This document shows, one piece after another, positions 43,754-58,187 of a DNA stretch of 64,000 bases; position 1 is the first letter of the stretch, and every line of letters begins with the position of its first letter. Origin of the DNA: a virus; IMG/VR virus record IMGVR_UViG_3300028392_001993, positions 1 through 64,000 of that record; one strand, 5' to 3'. A model generated the notes under the pieces. That model searched no databases and was not told the origin of the DNA. It was given only the letters and a program-made list of their open reading frames with translations. Made by a program: the position numbers and the translations under genes.

Positions 43754-43921
43754 TAGAGCATAAGTAGAATCAGCAACGCCGATACAGTATCGACGTCGGA
43801 AACATATTGACGCCTGGGGTAGCGAAACCCTTTTACTGGTGTGTTACACATAGAACGCCGATCTCCGTAGCAGATTCTCTGCAAGCTCTTAAACTTATTG
43901 ACACTAACTTTAGGAGAAATC
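43754..43921 (+). other. 168-nt intergenic leader with hairpins
   Basis: No gene seen. CGATA-CAG-TATCG (about 43781-43793) and GGGT...ACCC followed by TTTT (43817-43834) could fold; the latter is a weak terminator candidate. A good TTTAGGAGA Shine-Dalgarno ends the leader before the Bug receptor. Confidence 0.4.
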
Positions 43922-44836
43922 ATGTCAAAAATTCTAGCAACCTTGTTGGCTGCCATTGCCATCACCGCGGCTCAGGCTCGCGAAAACATCACAATCTTGT
44001 ATGCTTACAGCGCAGGTGATTCAGTAGCCAACTACCATCGAACCATTGCCAACGAAGCAAACAAGATCCAAGACCGATATAACTTTGTATTTGATGCCAA
44101 ACCCGGGGCCGGAGGTGCTATTGCATCCAACCAGGCACTGGGCACACCAAATACTATCTTGGCACACTCAACTGCGTTCTTTGTTCGTCCAGTTGTGTTT
44201 CCCAACGAAAGTTACGACATTGCTCGATTCCGGCAACAATACGTTCACTGTATGGCGCCCATGGCAGTGACCAGCAGTCGATATCGATCGCTGAAAGATG
44301 TTCCTACCACGGCTACCGTGGGTATCAGTGGCTTGGGAGTTACCACACACCTGGCTGCAATTGAACTCAAGAAAAAGTTTCCTGACCTGAACATTATCCC
44401 ATTCAAATCAACCACAGACTCAATGTTGAGCATGGTGGGTGGGCAAACTGACTTGCACATTGGTTTTATATCAGAAGCAGAGCAATGGAGCCGGGATAAT
44501 ACCAGCAGTGATCGCAAGGTCTCTGTGTTGGGTATTACTGGCAACAAAACAGTCAACGGTTATACTCCCCTGGCAAAACTGGGTCTTGATCCCAGTTTCG
44601 CTGACATGAATGTGGGGCATCACATGGTGCTTCCTGTCACAATTGATGATGCAAAACGCAAAGAGTTTTATGAAATTTTTGCCAAGGCCTCTCGAACAGA
44701 TGCAGTACGTGCGGCCTATGCTGTGGACTATTGCGAACCACAATCAGTCAAGTACGAAGACTTAAACAAGTTTTTTGTGTTTCATACTGAGTACTGGCGC
44801 AAATTGGCCAGTCAAGTTAAACTAGACAACAAGTAA
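43922..44836 (+). CDS. Bug/TctC-family periplasmic binding protein, copy 1 (304 aa)
   Basis: Signal peptide M-S-K-I-L-A-T-L-L-A-A-I-A-I-T-A-A-Q-A with a plausible cut after A-Q-A. Mature part has the family layout: F-D-A-K-P-G-A-G-G-A-I-A-S-N (the P-G-G/A-x-G ligand loop), T-A-T-V-G-I-S-G-L-G, L-S-M-V-G-G-Q-T-D-L and P-L-A-K-L-G-L. Bug proteins bind carboxylates in the periplasm of proteobacteria. A phage copy is unusual; two PP-loop genes are immediately upstream. Role during infection is unknown. Confidence 0.83.
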   Translation: MSKILATLLAAIAITAAQARENITILYAYSAGDSVANYHRTIANEANKIQDRYNFVFDAKPGAGGAIASNQALGTPNTILAHSTAFFVRPVVFPNESYDIARFRQQYVHCMAPMAVTSSRYRSLKDVPTTATVGISGLGVTTHLAAIELKKKFPDLNIIPFKSTTDSMLSMVGGQTDLHIGFISEAEQWSRDNTSSDRKVSVLGITGNKTVNGYTPLAKLGLDPSFADMNVGHHMVLPVTIDDAKRKEFYEIFAKASRTDAVRAAYAVDYCEPQSVKYEDLNKFFVFHTEYWRKLASQVKLDNK

Positions 44837-44889: not shown

Positions 44890-45069
44890 ATGAGCCGGAC
44901 ATTGATCTGGGTGTTGAGTTGGAGTGTGTTAGGACCAGTGCCTGAGTCGGGCGAACAAGCCAAGTTCAAAACTCAAGCAGAATGCGAACAGGCTCGAGTT
45001 CAAAAGCGTGAAGAATACCAGGCACAGAAAAAACAGATTGTGGCTAGTTGTCACCAGAGTACCAAATAG
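44890..45069 (+). CDS. Small protein with N-terminal hydrophobic segment (59 aa)
   Basis: ATG 44890 after TTAGGAA. Hydrophobic start M-S-R-T-L-I-W-V-L-S-W-S-V-L-G, then a charged helix with A-E-C-E-Q-A-R-V-Q-K-R-E-E and a late V-A-S-C-H. A small exported or anchored protein with two Cys, similar in layout to the 38678 product. Ends just before the tmRNA promoter. Confidence 0.6.
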   Translation: MSRTLIWVLSWSVLGPVPESGEQAKFKTQAECEQARVQKREEYQAQKKQIVASCHQSTK

Positions 45070-45070
45070 T

Positions 45071-45099
45071 TTGACATCAAATCAATTTTGTGGTATAAT
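45071..45099 (+). promoter_or_regulatory. Perfect consensus promoter of the tmRNA
   Basis: TTGACA (45071-45076), 17 bases, TATAAT (45094-45099); expected +1 near 45106. Confidence 0.8.
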
Positions 45100-45105
45100 A
45101 AATAC

Positions 45106-45466
45106 TTGAACAGCGTAAACTGTTACTGAGAAAAGGATTCAAGACCCGGGGGCAGTGCCCGGCAGGTCCACCATAAGCATACTTAAATCTCTACAAAACC
45201 GAAAGGTTGGGATCAGGGCTGGTACACCGGATTACTCTAGGGAAACCTATAAGTGCGGATAGACCATAGTATGCTTTTGATGGGCCTGACACAGGATCGA
45301 TTGGGTCAAGAGTACAAGTAATGGCGCTCGGTAGGCGATGACCGTTAATCAAGCAAAACAAGTATCTGCAAACGATGATACATACCTCTTAGCCGCAAAC
45401 GCCTAAGAGCGAGGCAGTTATGCCTTGTAACCAAAAATAGCAATAGGGACTTCGGTCCCTATTTTT
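45106..45466 (+). ncRNA. ssrA: Circularly permuted two-piece tmRNA
   Basis: The acceptor piece comes first: CCGGGGGCAGTGCCCGG (T-arm with a non-standard loop), CAGGTCC, A, CCA (45171-45173). A 108-nt intervening segment follows, closed by AAGCATACT/AGTATGCTT. The coding piece begins GGGCCTG at 45282. GGGCCTG pairs with CAGGTCC in all seven positions with G3-U70, the alanine identity pair. GGGTC (coding) pairs with GACCC (acceptor) and AGTAA with TTACT as helix P2. The tag frame 45368-45406 reads ANDDTYLLAANA and stop. The T-arm loop resembles alphaproteobacterial permuted tmRNAs (from memory). tmRNA rescues stalled ribosomes. Confidence 0.88.
45442..45466 (+). terminator. Rho-independent terminator of the tmRNA
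   Basis: AATAGGGAC, TTCG loop, GTCCCTATT and a T-run; nine base pairs. Confidence 0.88.
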
Positions 45467-46931: not shown

Positions 46932-46960
46932 TAGACCATAAATTGAAACTCTGCTACAAT
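46932..46960 (+). promoter_or_regulatory. Promoter of the 1.2-kb structured RNA region
   Basis: TAGACC (46932-46937), 17 bases, TACAAT (46955-46960); follows a terminator, and no gene starts within the next 1.2 kb. Confidence 0.55.
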
Positions 46961-47269
46961 AGAACTTAACAAAGCAACAAAGTAGATCGATACTAGTTGT
47001 AACAGATCTTTAAAAATCGTATTTCATTTAGTCCTGGTAACAGGGACTATATGAGAACACATTAGGGTTACCAGACCCGTTAGAGGCATTGGTAGAAGTG
47101 AATTGACACCGGCGGGTGTCCACTTGCTACCAGTCATGAAGCCGGCTCTCTACTGTAAAAAGTAGATCCAGAAAAGCGGCGGATCGTCTGGCAGTAATGA
47201 CCGTGGTGACTTGGTCTCGCAAGCCAAGCAGAACGAGATCCACAACGGTTCCCAAATGTTTTTTCATAT

Positions 47270-47345
47270 GGTGGGTTCATCTAGAGGCCTAGGATAGTGC
47301 CCTTTCACGGCATTCACACCGGTTCGAATCCGGTACCCACTACCA
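47270..47345 (+). tRNA. tRNA-Glu (TTC)
   Basis: Acceptor GGTGGGT/ACCCACT (G1-U72), anticodon loop CTTTCAC, T-arm ACCGG-TTCGAAT-CCGGT, encoded CCA. Lies inside the structured RNA region; a 13-bp stem begins five bases after its CCA. Confidence 0.9.
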
Positions 47346-47785
47346 TACGAAAACACACTGGAGATAAGCAGGAACTTGTGGCCACGAGGTCGCCTCGTCC
47401 AGTGTGTTTTTATATGGTCACTATATAGAAATACATTGCCGAGGAGCGACGTCTTTACCATGGGCTCCGACCATAAAGAGAGGTAGTGTGTTTCTATATA
47501 GCAATCATATAGAAGTATTCTTGGCATAAGTCAAAGCGAGAGAAGAAGCCTAGTATCTGCAGATGCGAAAGTTTCAGTGGTGCAAGTCCCCTCCTAGGCC
47601 TGCTGTTGAGAGTGCTTCTATATGGTAGATGTTATAGTCAAGCATCGATAAGGTATCGTGTATGGACGCATACACTATTCGGGTCACAGCGGCCGGCGAC
47701 TGATCCTAATATAACTGCATCGGCTTTTGCACTCTTAGCGGAGGACGCATAAATTGGCATTCTCGGTGCTTGACTATGATATTTT

Positions 47786-47860
47786 GGTCTGATAGTATAT
47801 CGGTTAGTATCCCACACTGTCACTGTGGGGAGACGGGTTCGATTCCCGTTCAGACCGCCA
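47786..47860 (+). tRNA. tRNA-Asp (GTC)
   Basis: Acceptor GGTCTGA/TCAGACC, discriminator G, loop CTGTCAC, T-loop TTCGATT, encoded CCA. Within the structured RNA region. Confidence 0.93.
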
Positions 47861-48184
47861 AGTTTGAAGCCACACCGCCTGGGCACTTCTCTCAGTAATG
47901 AGACACTAGGTCCTGCAACCGTGGCTTCTCCCCAACGTTCCAGCGTCACTGGATAGTCTGACCCAGACGATGAGAAGTGTGATGACACACACGGGTGGTT
48001 CTGAAACGGCGAAGTTTCACTGAGCAATCAGCGGTCTAACCTAACCGGCGTTGGCAATACGAGAACGGTCCCTGTCGAGAAGCGGGTGGAAGGTGTGACG
48101 AAAATACTTGTGTGGCAGTCCATGACGAGCCTAACAAATTTTCTATCTCACTATAATTACCGCCGGGGGACGCAGAGCACTTGA

Positions 48185-48442: not shown

Positions 48443-49645
48443 TTATCCGTTACGGGCAATCCAATCAGCCCAGAGCGCATGCCACTCTGGGAATACTTCA
48501 GCAAAACTTTCACTGCGGAGTTGGTCAAGTTTAGCATTATGATACCAAAACGATATTTGTTTTTCGTGGGTGTAATCCGGAGGAGTCCCCATCAAAAACT
48601 TAACAACTTCTCTAAATCGATCAATGGTTTTGAATTTTTCAGCCACTTTGAGTTTGAGTTCGTAAGGCATATATTGAATATTGTTGTGGGGTTCGTCTAA
48701 TACATAATTTTCAAAACTTATGGGCCATTTGCGTTTGAGCCCTTCGGCGTGTAGTTCATCCATGTCAAACACATTTAAAATAGTGGGACTGCAACGAATG
48801 TGTGTTTTTATGTTTGGATACGGGGCTACGTCTATTAGATACTTGTCAGTTACTGCTAGAACTTCGTCCCATTTGCTACCGTAACGTAAATAATCGTTTT
48901 TTGCCCCTACCCCATCAATACTGATAGCAAAATTAACCAGTTTGAATTCTTTGAAGTAGTCTACCAACTTAGGATCATAGATTGTGCCATTGGTATGTGT
49001 TCCGAGTATTTGATTCTTGGCGCCACCTGTACTGACTGCAGACTCTAGGATTTTGTAACTTAACGGAATCATCAATGGTTCGCCACCGTACAAGTCCCAA
49101 AATACCAGTTCTTTTTGCCACTCATCAAATGTGGCTTCAAGAGGTTTGTTATTTTTGTAGATAGTGGTATGAGGTTCCCATTTTTTTAACCAAATCTTAA
49201 ACGGTTTATCGTAGCCATCGTCCTTGTCAAATTCGTAGGCATCTTTGAACCACGATGTACTGGTAATTTCGTTGCAACTACGGCAGGCGTTGTTGCATTG
49301 TATGCCCGGTTTAATTATGATGACCCGGGGCTGATCTGGATGCGATTCAACATCAGCAAAGTCTAGATTTACTTGTTGCCGCATACTAACAACACCAATT
49401 TCCTCTTTCTGCCAACAACTATCACATTCTTTAATGCGTTCACCGTTTTCTAAATGTTGAACAAATTCTTGTCTATGCGGAGACTTCCACACCCGTTTAA
49501 GATCATCGTTAACATCAAACATATGATGATGTTCTGCTGTGGTATCTTTGTACCACCAGGTGCAAATCGGACAGGGACTGACCATGCCACTCATATCCAA
49601 CATAAGAGATAGTTCAGCAAGTTTACATTTGGTATCGTATTTCAT
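48443..49645 (-). CDS. Radical SAM protein with N-terminal twitch domain (400 aa)
   Basis: N-terminal cysteine domain first (S-P-C-P-I-C-T-W-W, then I-K-E-C-D-S-C-W-Q), a twitch/SPASM-like arrangement, then the core with I-Q-C-N-N-A-C-R-S-C (C-x3-C-x2-C) and W-D-L-Y-G-G-E-P-L. Also I-S-I-D-G-V-G in the barrel. ATG 49645 is preferred to an in-frame GTG 18 bases upstream because GTTAAATA lies five bases before it. Divergent from the B12-type radical SAM gene at 49749. Substrate unknown. Confidence 0.87.
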   Translation of the reverse strand: MKYDTKCKLAELSLMLDMSGMVSPCPICTWWYKDTTAEHHHMFDVNDDLKRVWKSPHRQEFVQHLENGERIKECDSCWQKEEIGVVSMRQQVNLDFADVESHPDQPRVIIIKPGIQCNNACRSCNEITSTSWFKDAYEFDKDDGYDKPFKIWLKKWEPHTTIYKNNKPLEATFDEWQKELVFWDLYGGEPLMIPLSYKILESAVSTGGAKNQILGTHTNGTIYDPKLVDYFKEFKLVNFAISIDGVGAKNDYLRYGSKWDEVLAVTDKYLIDVAPYPNIKTHIRCSPTILNVFDMDELHAEGLKRKWPISFENYVLDEPHNNIQYMPYELKLKVAEKFKTIDRFREVVKFLMGTPPDYTHEKQISFWYHNAKLDQLRSESFAEVFPEWHALWADWIARNG

Positions 49646-49748
49646 AACTATATTTAACGACACAACCTTTTGGTAATTTAATTAAAGTCATCCCCCCAAG
49701 GATGAGAAGTGCTATGACAAAAATCATCTGGTAAATATATCACGCAAC

Positions 49749-51704
49749 ATGACAGATTCTAAAAAACAAATTTTCGAAATTAAAACAGTTTCTGACAACG
49801 AGCCTGTGGTAATTGAAAATTCAATGGGCGAAAATTCGCCACATTTGGCCATACTAGAAACCATTGGTACTCTGAGTCGCGGTAGGCCTCAAAAAAATCT
49901 AGATCGAATAATTATCAATCCAGTTACAAAACAAACACGAGTAGCAATGGTATTGCTTCCTTATTGGTCCATACACCACGCACCGTATAATATTGCACGT
50001 CTGGTAGGTTTGGCAAAGGCTGCAGGATTTAGCAGTTGTGCATTTGACGTCAATGTGGAAACTTACAATTTAACAGACAAAAAAGAATTATGGCATTCAT
50101 ACCTGTCTTGGAAATGGGAACAGCCGGAATATTACTATGCAGATATACATCCGTTCATTGAATCTACTCTGTTAGATCAAATTGACAAGATTGTAGAATT
50201 CAAGCCAGATGTCATTGGATTTAGTATATACTATTGTAATAATGAGACTGTGGCCTGGGCGGTGCCAAAGATCAGAGAAAAGTTACCTAATGTAAAAATA
50301 ATAGTGGGCGGATCTCAAGTGATCCAAGGAAAACTTAAATATGCAGAATTATTTGATCACGTGGTCAAAGGTGAAGGAGAACAAGTGTTCCTTGACATCC
50401 TAGAGAAAATTGAAAACAAAACACCTATCTCTGAACGCTTTCTAAGTTATCCTAAAGATCAACGCATTGATCTAGATTCCATGCCGTGGCCAGACTACGC
50501 AGACTTTGACTTGAGTTTGTATCAGTATGGTGCTGCCGTAGGGTCAGAAATCAGTCGAGGGTGTATAGCAAAATGCGAGTACTGTATTGAAACACAATTT
50601 TGGCGTTATCGCGGCAGAGTTGCTACCACAGTAGTTGATGAAATTGAATATCAGTACAAAACATTTGGCGTTAGAGCCATACACTTTGTTGACAGTTTGG
50701 TCAATGGTAATTTAAAAGAGTTAAGAGCATTTGCACTCGGAGTAGTAGCAAAGGGCATGACTGACCTTGCATGGGCCGGTTATGCTCGATCCGACGGTCG
50801 AATGGATCTTGCATATCTGCAGGATTTAAAAAATGGTGGGTGTCACTTTTTAAATTTTGGAGTAGAGTCGGGTAGCAACAAGACACTTGCATTGATGAAG
50901 AAAAATGTCACCCGAGAAGAGATGGAACAAAATTTTAAGGATCTCAAAACAGTAGGCATTAACGCTTACAGTAATTGGATTGTTGGATTTCCCGGAGAGG
51001 AAATCGCCGACGTTGCAGACTCGTTGATTTTTTTATGGCGCACCAGAGATACTGCCATACGTCATTATAGTTTAAACTTATGTTACAACGAGCCGGGCAC
51101 TCCATTGGGAACCAATCCTGACAAGTTTAATATCAGTAGCACTGAGTGGGCCGGCAAATGGATCACTAAAGATTATCGCAATACCAATATACACCGACTG
51201 ATTAGATATAAATCTTTGTTAATATTCACCGCTCACATGCGTCGACATTTGGTTCGACCACACGAAGGTTGGGGGCTTGGGGGTATGGAACGTTACAATT
51301 TTGAAAATCACTACACGTTTTTGTACGATCCGAAGAATGCAAGAAATGTTATAGACTACGACGATTTTGATTACAACATTATAAAAATCAATGTCAATCC
51401 CGTGGCCGATAGTATGGTTAACGAAATATGGCCTTTGCTGAGAACTTTGTATCTTGCCTGGGGTGCATACGAGTTTAGTGTACGTTTTGATCAAGACGAG
51501 GATTTTAAAGAATTTGGAAATCAATTTGTTTTTTCGCCAACTTTTGAAGAAAAATTTAAATTCGATGGCAACGTTTGGTTTAAGATTGATGCCGCTGGCA
51601 ATTGGCAGGCCAAATTAGATTATGTATTTGATTCTGCTATTCCCAACTTGAACTTTGATCTACATTTTGATGAGACGGGAAATTGGGAAAGAATTTCCCG
51701 ATAG
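49749..51704 (+). CDS. B12-binding-type radical SAM protein (651 aa)
   Basis: N-terminal ~60 polar residues, then a Rossmann-like domain (V-A-M-V-L-L-P-Y-W-S, K-I-I-V-G-G-S-Q) of the cobalamin-binding kind, then G-C-I-A-K-C-E-Y-C-I-E (C-x3-C-x2-C) and S-N-W-I-V-G-F-P-G-E-E. A ~200-residue C-terminal part is unassigned. Similar in size to the protein at 26976 but clearly diverged. GGTAAATA lies 11 bases before the ATG. Possible methylase or ring-forming enzyme. Confidence 0.85.
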   Translation: MTDSKKQIFEIKTVSDNEPVVIENSMGENSPHLAILETIGTLSRGRPQKNLDRIIINPVTKQTRVAMVLLPYWSIHHAPYNIARLVGLAKAAGFSSCAFDVNVETYNLTDKKELWHSYLSWKWEQPEYYYADIHPFIESTLLDQIDKIVEFKPDVIGFSIYYCNNETVAWAVPKIREKLPNVKIIVGGSQVIQGKLKYAELFDHVVKGEGEQVFLDILEKIENKTPISERFLSYPKDQRIDLDSMPWPDYADFDLSLYQYGAAVGSEISRGCIAKCEYCIETQFWRYRGRVATTVVDEIEYQYKTFGVRAIHFVDSLVNGNLKELRAFALGVVAKGMTDLAWAGYARSDGRMDLAYLQDLKNGGCHFLNFGVESGSNKTLALMKKNVTREEMEQNFKDLKTVGINAYSNWIVGFPGEEIADVADSLIFLWRTRDTAIRHYSLNLCYNEPGTPLGTNPDKFNISSTEWAGKWITKDYRNTNIHRLIRYKSLLIFTAHMRRHLVRPHEGWGLGGMERYNFENHYTFLYDPKNARNVIDYDDFDYNIIKINVNPVADSMVNEIWPLLRTLYLAWGAYEFSVRFDQDEDFKEFGNQFVFSPTFEEKFKFDGNVWFKIDAAGNWQAKLDYVFDSAIPNLNFDLHFDETGNWERISR

Positions 51705-51814: not shown

Positions 51815-53011
51815 ATGAAATTTTTTGAAGATACATCTGCCTCATCTGATGATGTAAAGCATCATGGTTTTTACATTGTCAATGGCAAAAATTATCTGTA
51901 TCGGTACAATGCACTGGTGGCGGCCACACAGGCCAAGTGCGAACTAGAGTGGCGCTTCAATGACGAAGTGTACAATAGCATAGATTGGTCTATACCACTA
52001 AACAAACCCATACTTGAAATTTATCGTGAGCGGGCACAACAACTGCGTGACAAATACGACTATCTAATTCTTTCTTATAGTGGCGGGTCTGACAGCGACA
52101 ACATTCTTCGTGCGTTTGTGGACAACAATATACATCTTGACGAAGTGTGGATTGACTGGCCACACGGCATAATGGACAAAACTGGATTTAAACCATCTTT
52201 TGATTTGAGTCATGAGAATCTTGCCAGCGAATGGCACTACACCATTGAACCTAAACTTCGAGAGTTGGCTAAAAATCATCCCGGGGTAAAAATACACATA
52301 TCCGATACCACAAGTCAGGGTATTGTAGATGACCTTGAGGACACTTCTGTTATTGTGGGATTTAGAACATCTTACCAAAACATAAGACGCATGAGGTATA
52401 TTTGCAATTATCAACAAAATATGTACGACAACGGTATTGATGTTGCACTTGTATCCGGTATAGAGAAACCATCAGTGACACTAACCCCCGATAACATGAT
52501 TGCGGCGGTGTTTCATGAGTTACCGACTGTTTTTAAAAACGATGTCACTCCGGATCGCCACACTGTGATAGAATATTTTTATTGGACACCTGAGTATCCG
52601 CATATTGTAGTAAACCAAGCGCACGAACTCATAAGATATTTTCAACAGCACGTGGAAGAATTTAAAAATTTAGAAGAGCACTTGAGAACTAATAAATATG
52701 CAATACACCGCTCGATGAGTCTAGATCGAGCTGTGAACATATCCTGTTATCCTACTTGGGATAACTGTTTTCAAACAGATAAATTCTTCTACACATTTGC
52801 CAGTAATCAGTTCAACAAATTGTTGATCCCGTTTATTCGCACAGAACAATTTGCTAAAACATACTATCATCGTTACTTCAATGATGCCAACATCATTGAT
52901 CCCAAACTGATTTTTCATCCGGTTTACAAGAATCGATCAAAAGTTTGTTACAAATATTATCCCGTTATGAGTTTACAAAAATTTTATCAAGGAGTCGTTA
53001 GAAATGTTTAA
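51815..53011 (+). CDS. PP-loop ATPase, ~400-aa phage family, copy 3
   Basis: Starts 12 bases after the tRNA-fMet CCA with no Shine-Dalgarno. Same layout as copies 1 and 2: G-F-Y-I-V-N-G-K-N-Y-L-Y, W-R-F-N-D, R-E-R-A-Q-Q-L-R-D-K-Y-D-Y, P-loop L-S-Y-S-G-G-S-D-S-D-N, I-H-L-D-E-V, G-I-E-K-P, Y-F-Y-W-T-P-E-Y-P and N-Q-A-H-E-L-I. It overlaps the second Bug receptor by 8 nt, repeating the PP-loop/Bug order of 42563-44836. Confidence 0.82.
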   Translation: MKFFEDTSASSDDVKHHGFYIVNGKNYLYRYNALVAATQAKCELEWRFNDEVYNSIDWSIPLNKPILEIYRERAQQLRDKYDYLILSYSGGSDSDNILRAFVDNNIHLDEVWIDWPHGIMDKTGFKPSFDLSHENLASEWHYTIEPKLRELAKNHPGVKIHISDTTSQGIVDDLEDTSVIVGFRTSYQNIRRMRYICNYQQNMYDNGIDVALVSGIEKPSVTLTPDNMIAAVFHELPTVFKNDVTPDRHTVIEYFYWTPEYPHIVVNQAHELIRYFQQHVEEFKNLEEHLRTNKYAIHRSMSLDRAVNISCYPTWDNCFQTDKFFYTFASNQFNKLLIPFIRTEQFAKTYYHRYFNDANIIDPKLIFHPVYKNRSKVCYKYYPVMSLQKFYQGVVRNV

Positions 53012-53960
53012 AAATATCATCAGTATTGTTTGTTTGCTATTTGCCATGGCCGCTAATGCAACAGAGATGCCAGCAGAGCTAAAAGGCAAGACTATTCGAT
53101 ATGTTGTGCCCACGGCACCAGGTTCACTGAGTGATGTGCGTTCACGTGAAGTGCTTGACGTTGTATCAAAGCAAACTGGACTGACATTTGTGATCACTTA
53201 CAAACCAGGCAATAAAAACGGGGTTGGCATGCAAACCATTGCAGAGTCAGCACCCGATGGCCTGACCATGGGTTGGACCAGTTCGCCCACACGCATCATC
53301 TACGATCTCAAGAACGCAACTGGCTTCCCCAAGCGTGATGAGCTTGTGCCGTTTGTGAATCTTTGGAAATTCTCCAATGTGGTATCTGCAGATGTCAATG
53401 CACCGTTTAATACCATGCGAGAGGCTTTGACGTATATTCGAGCAAATCCAAACCGACTAAACTATGCTCAAGTTGATGCAGTATCAGCTATTACACTAGA
53501 AAGATTGTTCAACAACGACAATAAAGACACAGTGGTTGGTATTCCAATGACCACCTTTCCCGAAGCAATTGCATTGATGAAAAACAAACAGATGACTTTT
53601 ATTGCCACTAGCATTGGATACGCACAAGACAATGCCTCACACATCAAGATGTTGGCCACCACTGGCGCCACAAGACATTCAACATTGCCTAACATTCCCA
53701 CTGTGGGAGAGTTTGTGCCAGGATTTGAAATGCCATCATATGGTTCAGCATTTTTGCCACGTGGTGTACCACAACACATCTTGAACTACTACAATGAAGT
53801 GTTTGTGACTGCACTGCGTAATCCTGAGTTACAGTCCAAAATGCGAACCTGGGAATACGAACCTTGTGTAGATAATCTAGCACAGACACAGGCAGTATAT
53901 GATCGAGAATATGTGCGCTTTGACCGTATGATCAAACAAACCAAGATTGAAATCAAATGA
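53004..53960 (+). CDS. Bug/TctC-family periplasmic binding protein, copy 2 (318 aa)
   Basis: Signal peptide M-F-K-N-I-I-S-I-V-C-L-L-F-A-M-A-A-N-A, then K-T-I-R-Y-V-V-P-T-A-P-G-S-L-S-D (ligand-loop position), Y-K-P-G-N-K-N-G-V-G, L-A-T-T-G-A-T-R and L-P-N-I-P-T-V-G-E-F-V-P-G-F-E typical of Bug receptors. Diverged from copy 1. Translated with the PP-loop gene (8-nt overlap) and with the SDR downstream (ATGA). Binds a small carboxylate in family members; the ligand here is unknown. Confidence 0.88.
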   Translation: MFKNIISIVCLLFAMAANATEMPAELKGKTIRYVVPTAPGSLSDVRSREVLDVVSKQTGLTFVITYKPGNKNGVGMQTIAESAPDGLTMGWTSSPTRIIYDLKNATGFPKRDELVPFVNLWKFSNVVSADVNAPFNTMREALTYIRANPNRLNYAQVDAVSAITLERLFNNDNKDTVVGIPMTTFPEAIALMKNKQMTFIATSIGYAQDNASHIKMLATTGATRHSTLPNIPTVGEFVPGFEMPSYGSAFLPRGVPQHILNYYNEVFVTALRNPELQSKMRTWEYEPCVDNLAQTQAVYDREYVRFDRMIKQTKIEIK

Positions 53961-57152: not shown

Positions 57153-58187
57153 GTGCTAAAACTTAATTATTGTGAATTTTACATAACCAATGTATGCAAT
57201 TTGAACTGCTCGCGTTGCAATAGATTTAACAACTATGCGTTCTCCGGACATTATAAATGGAACGAGTATGCTGAGGTATACAAAAGTTGGTCAGAAAAAC
57301 TAGATGTTGGCAGAATTGGCATCTTGGGCGGTGAGCCTATGCTCAATCCCGAATTTGATGTATGGGTTGAAGAAATTGCTAAACTTTGGCCCAGGGCCTC
57401 CATATTGATTATAACCAATGGAACTCAATTTCACCGTTGGCCTATGTTGTATAAGTTGCTAGAAAAATATCAAGGCAGAGTCAGAATTGATATTAATCGC
57501 CATGATATAAATGCTGAGGCGGAAGTAGTTCGCAATGTTGAACAATTTTTTCCCGGAGATTACAAAAAGTTTTATGTCAATGACGGGTATTACACACAAG
57601 GCCCTGACCATGTTAAGCATTTTAATTTTGCAGATAACGGAATAAAATATGAGGTTTGGGAAGACCAAACATACAAACTTGCATGGAGAGATCACAATCA
57701 GATCTTTGTTAGATATGGTCTTGCAAATACATTTAGTAAGATACCAATAGAACGTTATGATGATCGAGTTAAATTAGTTTATTGGAGTGATCCAACCGCC
57801 GCTATATCTATTTGCGGTGGCAAAGAATCTCATCATTTTCTCAATGGTAAACTTTACAAATGTAATGTCTCTGCAATATTACCAAATTTTATCAAGCAAT
57901 TTGATGTTGCTATGACAGATCAACAAAAAGAGTTAATTGAATCTTATGAACCAGCAGAAATAACATGGAACAATGATAAATTAACAGAATTTGTTGAAGG
58001 GTTACGGCAGACTCGATGTATCGAGCAGTGTCGGTTATGTCCAGATGTGCTAGATGCAAAAGAGTTTCAAGCAGGTATTAAAAAGGTACATATAAAAAAA
58101 ATACAGAATTTGGAGAGTGAGAAGCATTGGCGACTTCAGGAGACTGTAAATCTTCCACCTTACGGTATACGGGGTTCGAATCCCTGA
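57153..58187 (+). CDS. Radical SAM protein whose 3' end runs into tRNA-Tyr (344 aa)
   Basis: GTG start after TATAAGTA. C-N-L-N-C-S-R-C (C-x3-C-x2-C) at about residues 14-21, I-L-G-G-E-P-M-L, and late C-R-L-C-P cluster-type Cys. Paralogue of the protein at 4024. The last ~25 codons are inside tRNA-Tyr in the sense direction, so the C-terminus (E-S-E-K-H-W-R-L-Q-E) is encoded by tRNA sequence; RNase P cutting would remove it from the message. Substrate unknown. Confidence 0.85.
   Translation: MLKLNYCEFYITNVCNLNCSRCNRFNNYAFSGHYKWNEYAEVYKSWSEKLDVGRIGILGGEPMLNPEFDVWVEEIAKLWPRASILIITNGTQFHRWPMLYKLLEKYQGRVRIDINRHDINAEAEVVRNVEQFFPGDYKKFYVNDGYYTQGPDHVKHFNFADNGIKYEVWEDQTYKLAWRDHNQIFVRYGLANTFSKIPIERYDDRVKLVYWSDPTAAISICGGKESHHFLNGKLYKCNVSAILPNFIKQFDVAMTDQQKELIESYEPAEITWNNDKLTEFVEGLRQTRCIEQCRLCPDVLDAKEFQAGIKKVHIKKIQNLESEKHWRLQETVNLPPYGIRGSNP

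Follow-up and report, generated by a model that had tools for sequence, protein, structure and literature searches.

The tRNA cluster of phage T4 produces two small stable RNAs together with its tRNAs, and RNase III is involved. Dense tRNAs accompanied by tmRNA are a feature of phage and mycobacterial tRNA arrays; to our knowledge, stem-closed RNA modules between the tRNAs have not been described for them. GOLLD (RF02032) and ROOL are large structured phage RNAs of lake origin, supported by covariation and found near tRNA islands, and GOLLD can hold tRNAs (PMC12286853). In bacterial rrn operons, a promoter and a boxA site precede RNAs that are each surrounded by long helices, with tRNAs interspersed, and a critical element is the leader–trailer helix of >17 bp in which the site for RNase III lies (PMC10250234). 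The phage locus described here resembles each of these systems in part. It shares the origin, the tRNA-island setting and the covariation support of GOLLD and ROOL but consists of several separable RNAs, each with its own closing helix, and lacks a match to their covariance models. It shares the promoter, boxA-like site, long helices and interspersed tRNAs of rrn operons, whereas it is phage-borne, contains no rRNA and has new small RNAs as cargos, and antitermination and RNase III cutting would apply by analogy. The likeness to T4 would lie in small stable RNAs made alongside phage tRNAs; in place of two such RNAs, the present locus has many interchangeable modules.

The window, i.e. the whole stretch of DNA analysed (64,000 bases), comprises bases 1–64000 of an IMG/VR virus record of 178,197 bases. 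Among its genes are a phage-type DNA polymerase (phrog_262), 23 tRNAs called by ARAGORN and a permuted tmRNA detected with Rfam, and it therefore derives from a large tailed phage. The segment ~46932–48179 is noncoding and highly structured and contains tRNA-Glu and tRNA-Asp (Table 1). A sequence-only reading of this DNA had proposed a structured noncoding region with two tRNAs at 46967–48170. Its nature was borne out by Rfam and ARAGORN for the tRNAs and by the folding energy of 47345–47785 (−161.5 kcal/mol versus −123.9 ± 5.9 kcal/mol for shuffled sequences, z = −6.4), while its ends are better placed at ~46932 and at 48179, the end of the 3′ domain. The absence of coding frames was confirmed as well: the two longest antisense ORFs have no PHROG match and are broken by stops or frameshifts in relatives, which rules out antisense coding. 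Likewise, the proposed chain of long closing stems corresponds to four abutting stems of 20–23 bp enclosing 35, 41, 77 and 114 nt (mod1–mod4). No other stem in the window reaches their length; the next best has 17 bp, and stems of ≥14 bp number 16 in the 64 kb versus a block-shuffled mean of 5.3. The ACCA end of tRNA-Glu (47342–47345) pairs with 47415–47418. No clear terminator was found 3′ of the 3′ domain in the window, and the gene that follows is on the opposite strand.

Table 1 Predicted and detected features of the structured RNA region (positions in the window).
Feature	Position	Strand	Remarks
Sigma-70-type promoter, TAGACC-17-TACAAT	46932..46960	+	−35 weak in the window itself
BoxA-like antitermination element, GATCTTTAAAAA	47005..47016	+	One base off the strict pattern; assigned by position
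mod0, ~200-nt structured RNA with own closing stem	47046..47272	+	Outer arms and internal long-range helix covary
tRNA-Glu (TTC)	47270..47345	+	ARAGORN and Rfam
mod1, 20-bp stem enclosing 35 nt	47342..47418	+	Outer pairs take in the ACCA end of tRNA-Glu
mod2, 20-bp stem enclosing 41 nt	47421..47501	+	Stem search and folding
mod3, 23-bp stem enclosing 77 nt	47504..47626	+	Homologue alone between other tRNAs in G013
mod4, 22-bp stem enclosing 114 nt	47627..47784	+	12/25 consensus pairs with compensatory changes
tRNA-Asp (GTC)	47786..47860	+	ARAGORN and Rfam
modA, ~63-nt hairpin, 18 pairs	47866..47928	+	6 pairs with compensatory changes
3′ domain, RNA family of 174–264 nt	47933..48179	+	Central long-range helix GGUGGU:ACCGCC; conserved tail GGGGGAYGCAGAGCA

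The tRNA island has further neighbours. The permuted tmRNA (45067–45444) is of the two-piece alphaproteobacterial type, and relatives with a permuted tmRNA have the tags ANDEKFLMAA and ANDEQFALAA (ARAGORN). Several radical-SAM proteins adjoin the island (48443–49663 on the minus strand, 49749–51704 and 57153–58187), one of which has up to 13 matches in related records. Two proteins similar to TctC, the tripartite tricarboxylate transporter receptor, are unusual in phage; they are encoded at 43898–44836, which scores just under the Pfam cut-off, and at 53004–53960.

Protein-neighbour searches with both radical-SAM genes yielded no homologous region. A search with the DNA polymerase gave 598 viral stretches, of which 80 were kept, many of them near-identical, and a DNA search of longer records located the RNA region in four of them (G002, G008, G011 and G013). 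At least 120 further loci were collected with a pattern of 23 bases out of the conserved 3′-domain tail; these 23 bases are invariant by construction, being the selection pattern, which does not apply to the rest of the conservation. No exact copy of the 23-mer was present in the GTDB collection of bacterial and archaeal genomes (257 billion bases). With nhmmer, homologues were found for mod0 (77 loci, 37 distinct), modA (75 and 32), mod4 (55 and 29) and mod3 (11 and 5); the sequences behind this and the other counts are related, and the counts are not numbers of independent events. No nhmmer homologue of mod1 or mod2 was detected among the loci searched, and these two could be mere spacers for that reason. 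The openly accessible literature searched contained no earlier description of these RNAs.

For the 3′ domain, RNAalifold on 41 divergent sequences gave a consensus of 41 pairs, 21 of which show compensatory double changes. The fraction of paired cells was 98.2%, versus 84.0% in shuffles and 35–54% when partners were slid by 1–3 columns, and double-change cells numbered 223 versus 62.9 in shuffles; none of 500 shuffles matched any of the five measures. Helices 1, 2, 3, 5 and 8 hold most of the double changes. Two others, helix 7 and the central GGUGGU:ACCGCC helix, are near-invariant and are supported by conservation, not by covariation. A covariance model of the domain matched 21 of 22 viral records, most of which had been picked for holding it, with one strong copy per record except for G032 with two; weak extra matches of 11–18 bits were left out of these counts. 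The model found no copy in four cultured relatives, BLASTN found none in cultured phages, and neither the window copy nor a short homologue in L142 reached a gathering score in Rfam 15. Judged from its covariation and conservation, the 3′ domain forms a new family of RNAs.

Compensatory changes in mod4 and modA (12/25 and 6/18 pairs) are well over those in column shuffles. For mod0, RNAalifold over all copies gave an energy near 0 because the alignment was too divergent, and its helices were therefore tested by direct pairing. The long-range six-pair helix is fully paired in all eight sequence combinations (100% versus 79% with swapped partners), and the outer arms have a ΔG of −23.8 when matched versus −10.7 with dissimilar partners (2/5000 permutations). 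The covariation in homologues that the sequence-only reading had named as a check was found in the 3′ domain, mod0, mod4 and modA. At least these four appear to be new conserved RNA families in an abundant jumbo-phage group.

The 1.37 Mb of loci contain 184 distinct stems of ≥17 bp, with lengths of 17–31 bp; since this catalogue was picked by pairing at that threshold, the pairing itself is not evidence. One hundred of the 184 stems lie ≤10 nt from a tRNA end, compared with 2% for random placement. The cargos of the 140 tRNA-proximal modules form 60 clusters, and GTRTGYTT occurs in the 3′ arm of 54 modules (shuffled mean 0.7), including 27 of the 60 cluster representatives. No motif shared among the module cargos rose above the null, and a common functional motif was rejected on this basis. 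Stem modules beside tRNAs are also present in cultured phages, namely Sinorhizobium phage Phosso (PV764938, ~433337–433442, 23-bp stem) and Vibrio phage 2.275.O (MG592671, ~189696–189782, 15-bp stem with a GTGTGTTT arm), both adjoining a tRNA. In the cultured Agrobacterium phage Atu_ph07, overlapping stems of 17–22 bp enclose a long insertion in a tRNA-like gene (L266:13088–13284).

The region had been suggested to have its own promoter. A promoter-like site is indeed located at 46932–46960, and its position is kept in homologues, which have TTGACC/TTGACT-N17-TATACT/TATAAT at the matching place, often in tandem. After the promoter and upstream of mod0, homologues carry the boxA-like element GTTCTTTAAAAA or GTTCTTTAACAA. 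In the loci, 42 distinct boxA-like sites were found versus 3 in shuffled DNA; 37 of the 42 have a promoter ≤110 nt upstream and a tRNA ≤1 kb downstream, and in 27 of 41 an arm of a closing stem (≥15 bp) follows within 110 nt. In the window, promoter and boxA-like element likewise lie upstream of the structured RNAs, the latter assigned by position with one mismatch. Helices of >17 bp comparable to leader–trailer helices are present in the window (20–23 bp) and in relatives (17–31 bp, selected at ≥17 bp). GTTCTTTAAAAATT is presumably like betaproteobacterial rRNA leaders. The E. coli rrn leaders, with boxA GCTCTTTAACAA, were used as a control, the leader query beginning 144 nt before 16S, and the comparison draws on a published account of rrn leaders (PMC4807359). 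Homology of the region to 16S or 23S rRNA was not detected with Rfam. AUUACCGC complements the 530 loop of 16S, but for every module the longest stretch complementary to E. coli rRNA is like that in shuffled sequences, and an antisense action on rRNA was rejected.

The sequence-only reading had described a 1.2-kb structured noncoding RNA region that could belong to GOLLD or ROOL or to a new class. One giant RNA of this type, with the two tRNAs in loops and the modules folding into one particle, would agree with the mod0–Asp–modA–3′ domain collinearity of several relatives and with the nearby GOLLD in G008 and G029, but we consider it quite unlikely, as the order and content of the modules vary among relatives. 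Specifically, the window and G002 have mod4 5′ of tRNA-Asp, whereas G008, G013 and L152 have it 3′ of the 3′ domain. In the window, mod0 precedes the 3′ domain; in L165, L181 and L248, it comes immediately after. Moreover, mod3 and the 3′ domain occur alone, the latter adjoining protein genes in L142 and L144, tRNAs needing excision lie between the modules, and in G008 and G029 the 3′ domain is a gene apart from GOLLD. The Rfam scan proposed for GOLLD and ROOL matched only tRNAs in the region at the gathering score, with chance sub-threshold families at E ≤ 10 and no match to ROOL. With the GOLLD criterion of >150 bits for the covariance model of the conserved 3′ region, RF02032 matched neither the window at the gathering score, nor the region at E ≤ 10, nor any part of the whole 178-kb record. 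The same search found GOLLD in G008, G029 and phage Phosso. Membership in either family is thus ruled out, and the suggestion of new RNA holds in the form of several small ones. Because related arrangements occur in many giant phages, the comparison favours a new RNA set over one giant RNA, and the region is better described as a putative operon of several new small RNAs and tRNAs. A further alternative, in which the 3′ domain is a riboswitch-like cis-regulatory leader of the next gene, draws on the 8 of 80 distinct contexts that have a ribosome-binding site and start codon ≤60 nt after the domain. Such a role is extremely improbable, since a tRNA or stem module comes after most copies (coding starts or other sequence after the remainder) and the next gene in the window runs on the other strand.

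The stem modules themselves may be read in three ways. If they were processing spacers for tRNA maturation, only the helix would matter and the cargo would be filler. The ~60 unrelated cargos behind one arm signature, their lack of a common motif beyond chance and the inclusion of the 3′ end of the upstream tRNA in the 5′ arm of 37 of 159 modules are in line with this, yet the conservation and internal covariation of mod0, mod4, modA and the 3′ domain are not expected of filler, making such a role unlikely for the modules as a whole. MITE-like mobile hairpin elements with terminal inverted repeats would explain why inverted arms of ~20 bp are common to modules with unrelated inserts and why modules occupy different positions. 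Insertion of an inverted-repeat transposon in both orientations was, however, not seen: all 101 copies of four module families with nearby tRNAs are in the tRNA direction. In addition, the arms vary between copies yet remain paired, and the modules are placed at tRNA ends, so that this very improbable explanation is largely refuted. The third reading, a cassette system in which a standard processing helix at tRNA ends carries interchangeable RNA cargos under rRNA-type antitermination, is a possibility that we put forward tentatively.

Other RNAs were noticed in the related islands. GOLLD (L125:5285–5749 on the minus strand, L261 and L260) exceeds the cut-off of Rfam in two jumbo phages from IMG/VR and in the cultured Sinorhizobium phage Phosso (PV764938, 33533–34001); G008 has it downstream of its 3′ domain. 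Two tandem tRNA-like RNAs lie between tRNA-Asp and modA on the minus strand of G008 (L124:600–800); they have T-arm and acceptor-like stems and end in CCA and TCA, but received no tRNA call. The T-loop motif also occurs in a few stem-module cargos (L143, L186 and L250). Another conserved RNA of ~200 nt, which reads TTTGATTAGCGATAGAGATCCGGTGGCAGAAGACC...CAGTAGCTTATCCTAA, is located between tRNAs in G008 (L124:870–1080, minus strand) and G011 (L126:2145–2347) and is absent from the window. It is likely a further family.

Taken as a whole, the region is probably an rrn-like stable-RNA operon yielding tRNAs along with several small structured RNAs. At the sequence level, comparison of the related loci shows how the RNAs are predicted to fold and that they are separate from one another; it also shows that stem arms are shared, that the modules keep to the tRNA strand and that promoter, boxA and tRNA follow in this order. 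By analogy, the region may work like an rrn operon without being a member of that class. Host sigma-70 RNA polymerase would start at the strong promoter, and the boxA-like leader would recruit host Nus factors, allowing readthrough of the long untranslated structured transcript. The ends of each emerging RNA would pair in a long helix (17–31 bp), as in the leader–trailer helices of pre-rRNA. Cleavage would fall to host RNase III in the closing helices and, at the tRNAs, to RNase P together with the tRNA 3′ enzymes, giving tRNA-Glu, tRNA-Asp and about seven small structured RNAs (mod0, mod1–4, modA and the 3′ domain). Host factors are assumed here because genes for RNase III and NusB were not found in 21 phage records. 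From the likeness to rrn we infer that the operon is transcribed with antitermination, that RNase III cleaves the transcript and that the RNAs are stable. Since the RNAs share an operon with tRNAs and adjoin tmRNA, our guess is that those released are abundant trans-acting RNAs in the phage takeover of translation.

If the rrn-like operon is real, the phage would have copied the logic of rRNA operons, boxA plus leader–trailer helices, to make stable RNAs, and there would be a concrete route to asking what role the structured RNAs of phage tRNA islands play, GOLLD included. The cultured relatives with tRNA-adjacent stem modules make part of the proposal testable. Should the cassette system also hold, giant phages would deliver many stable trans-acting RNAs, including new families, from one rRNA-like operon.
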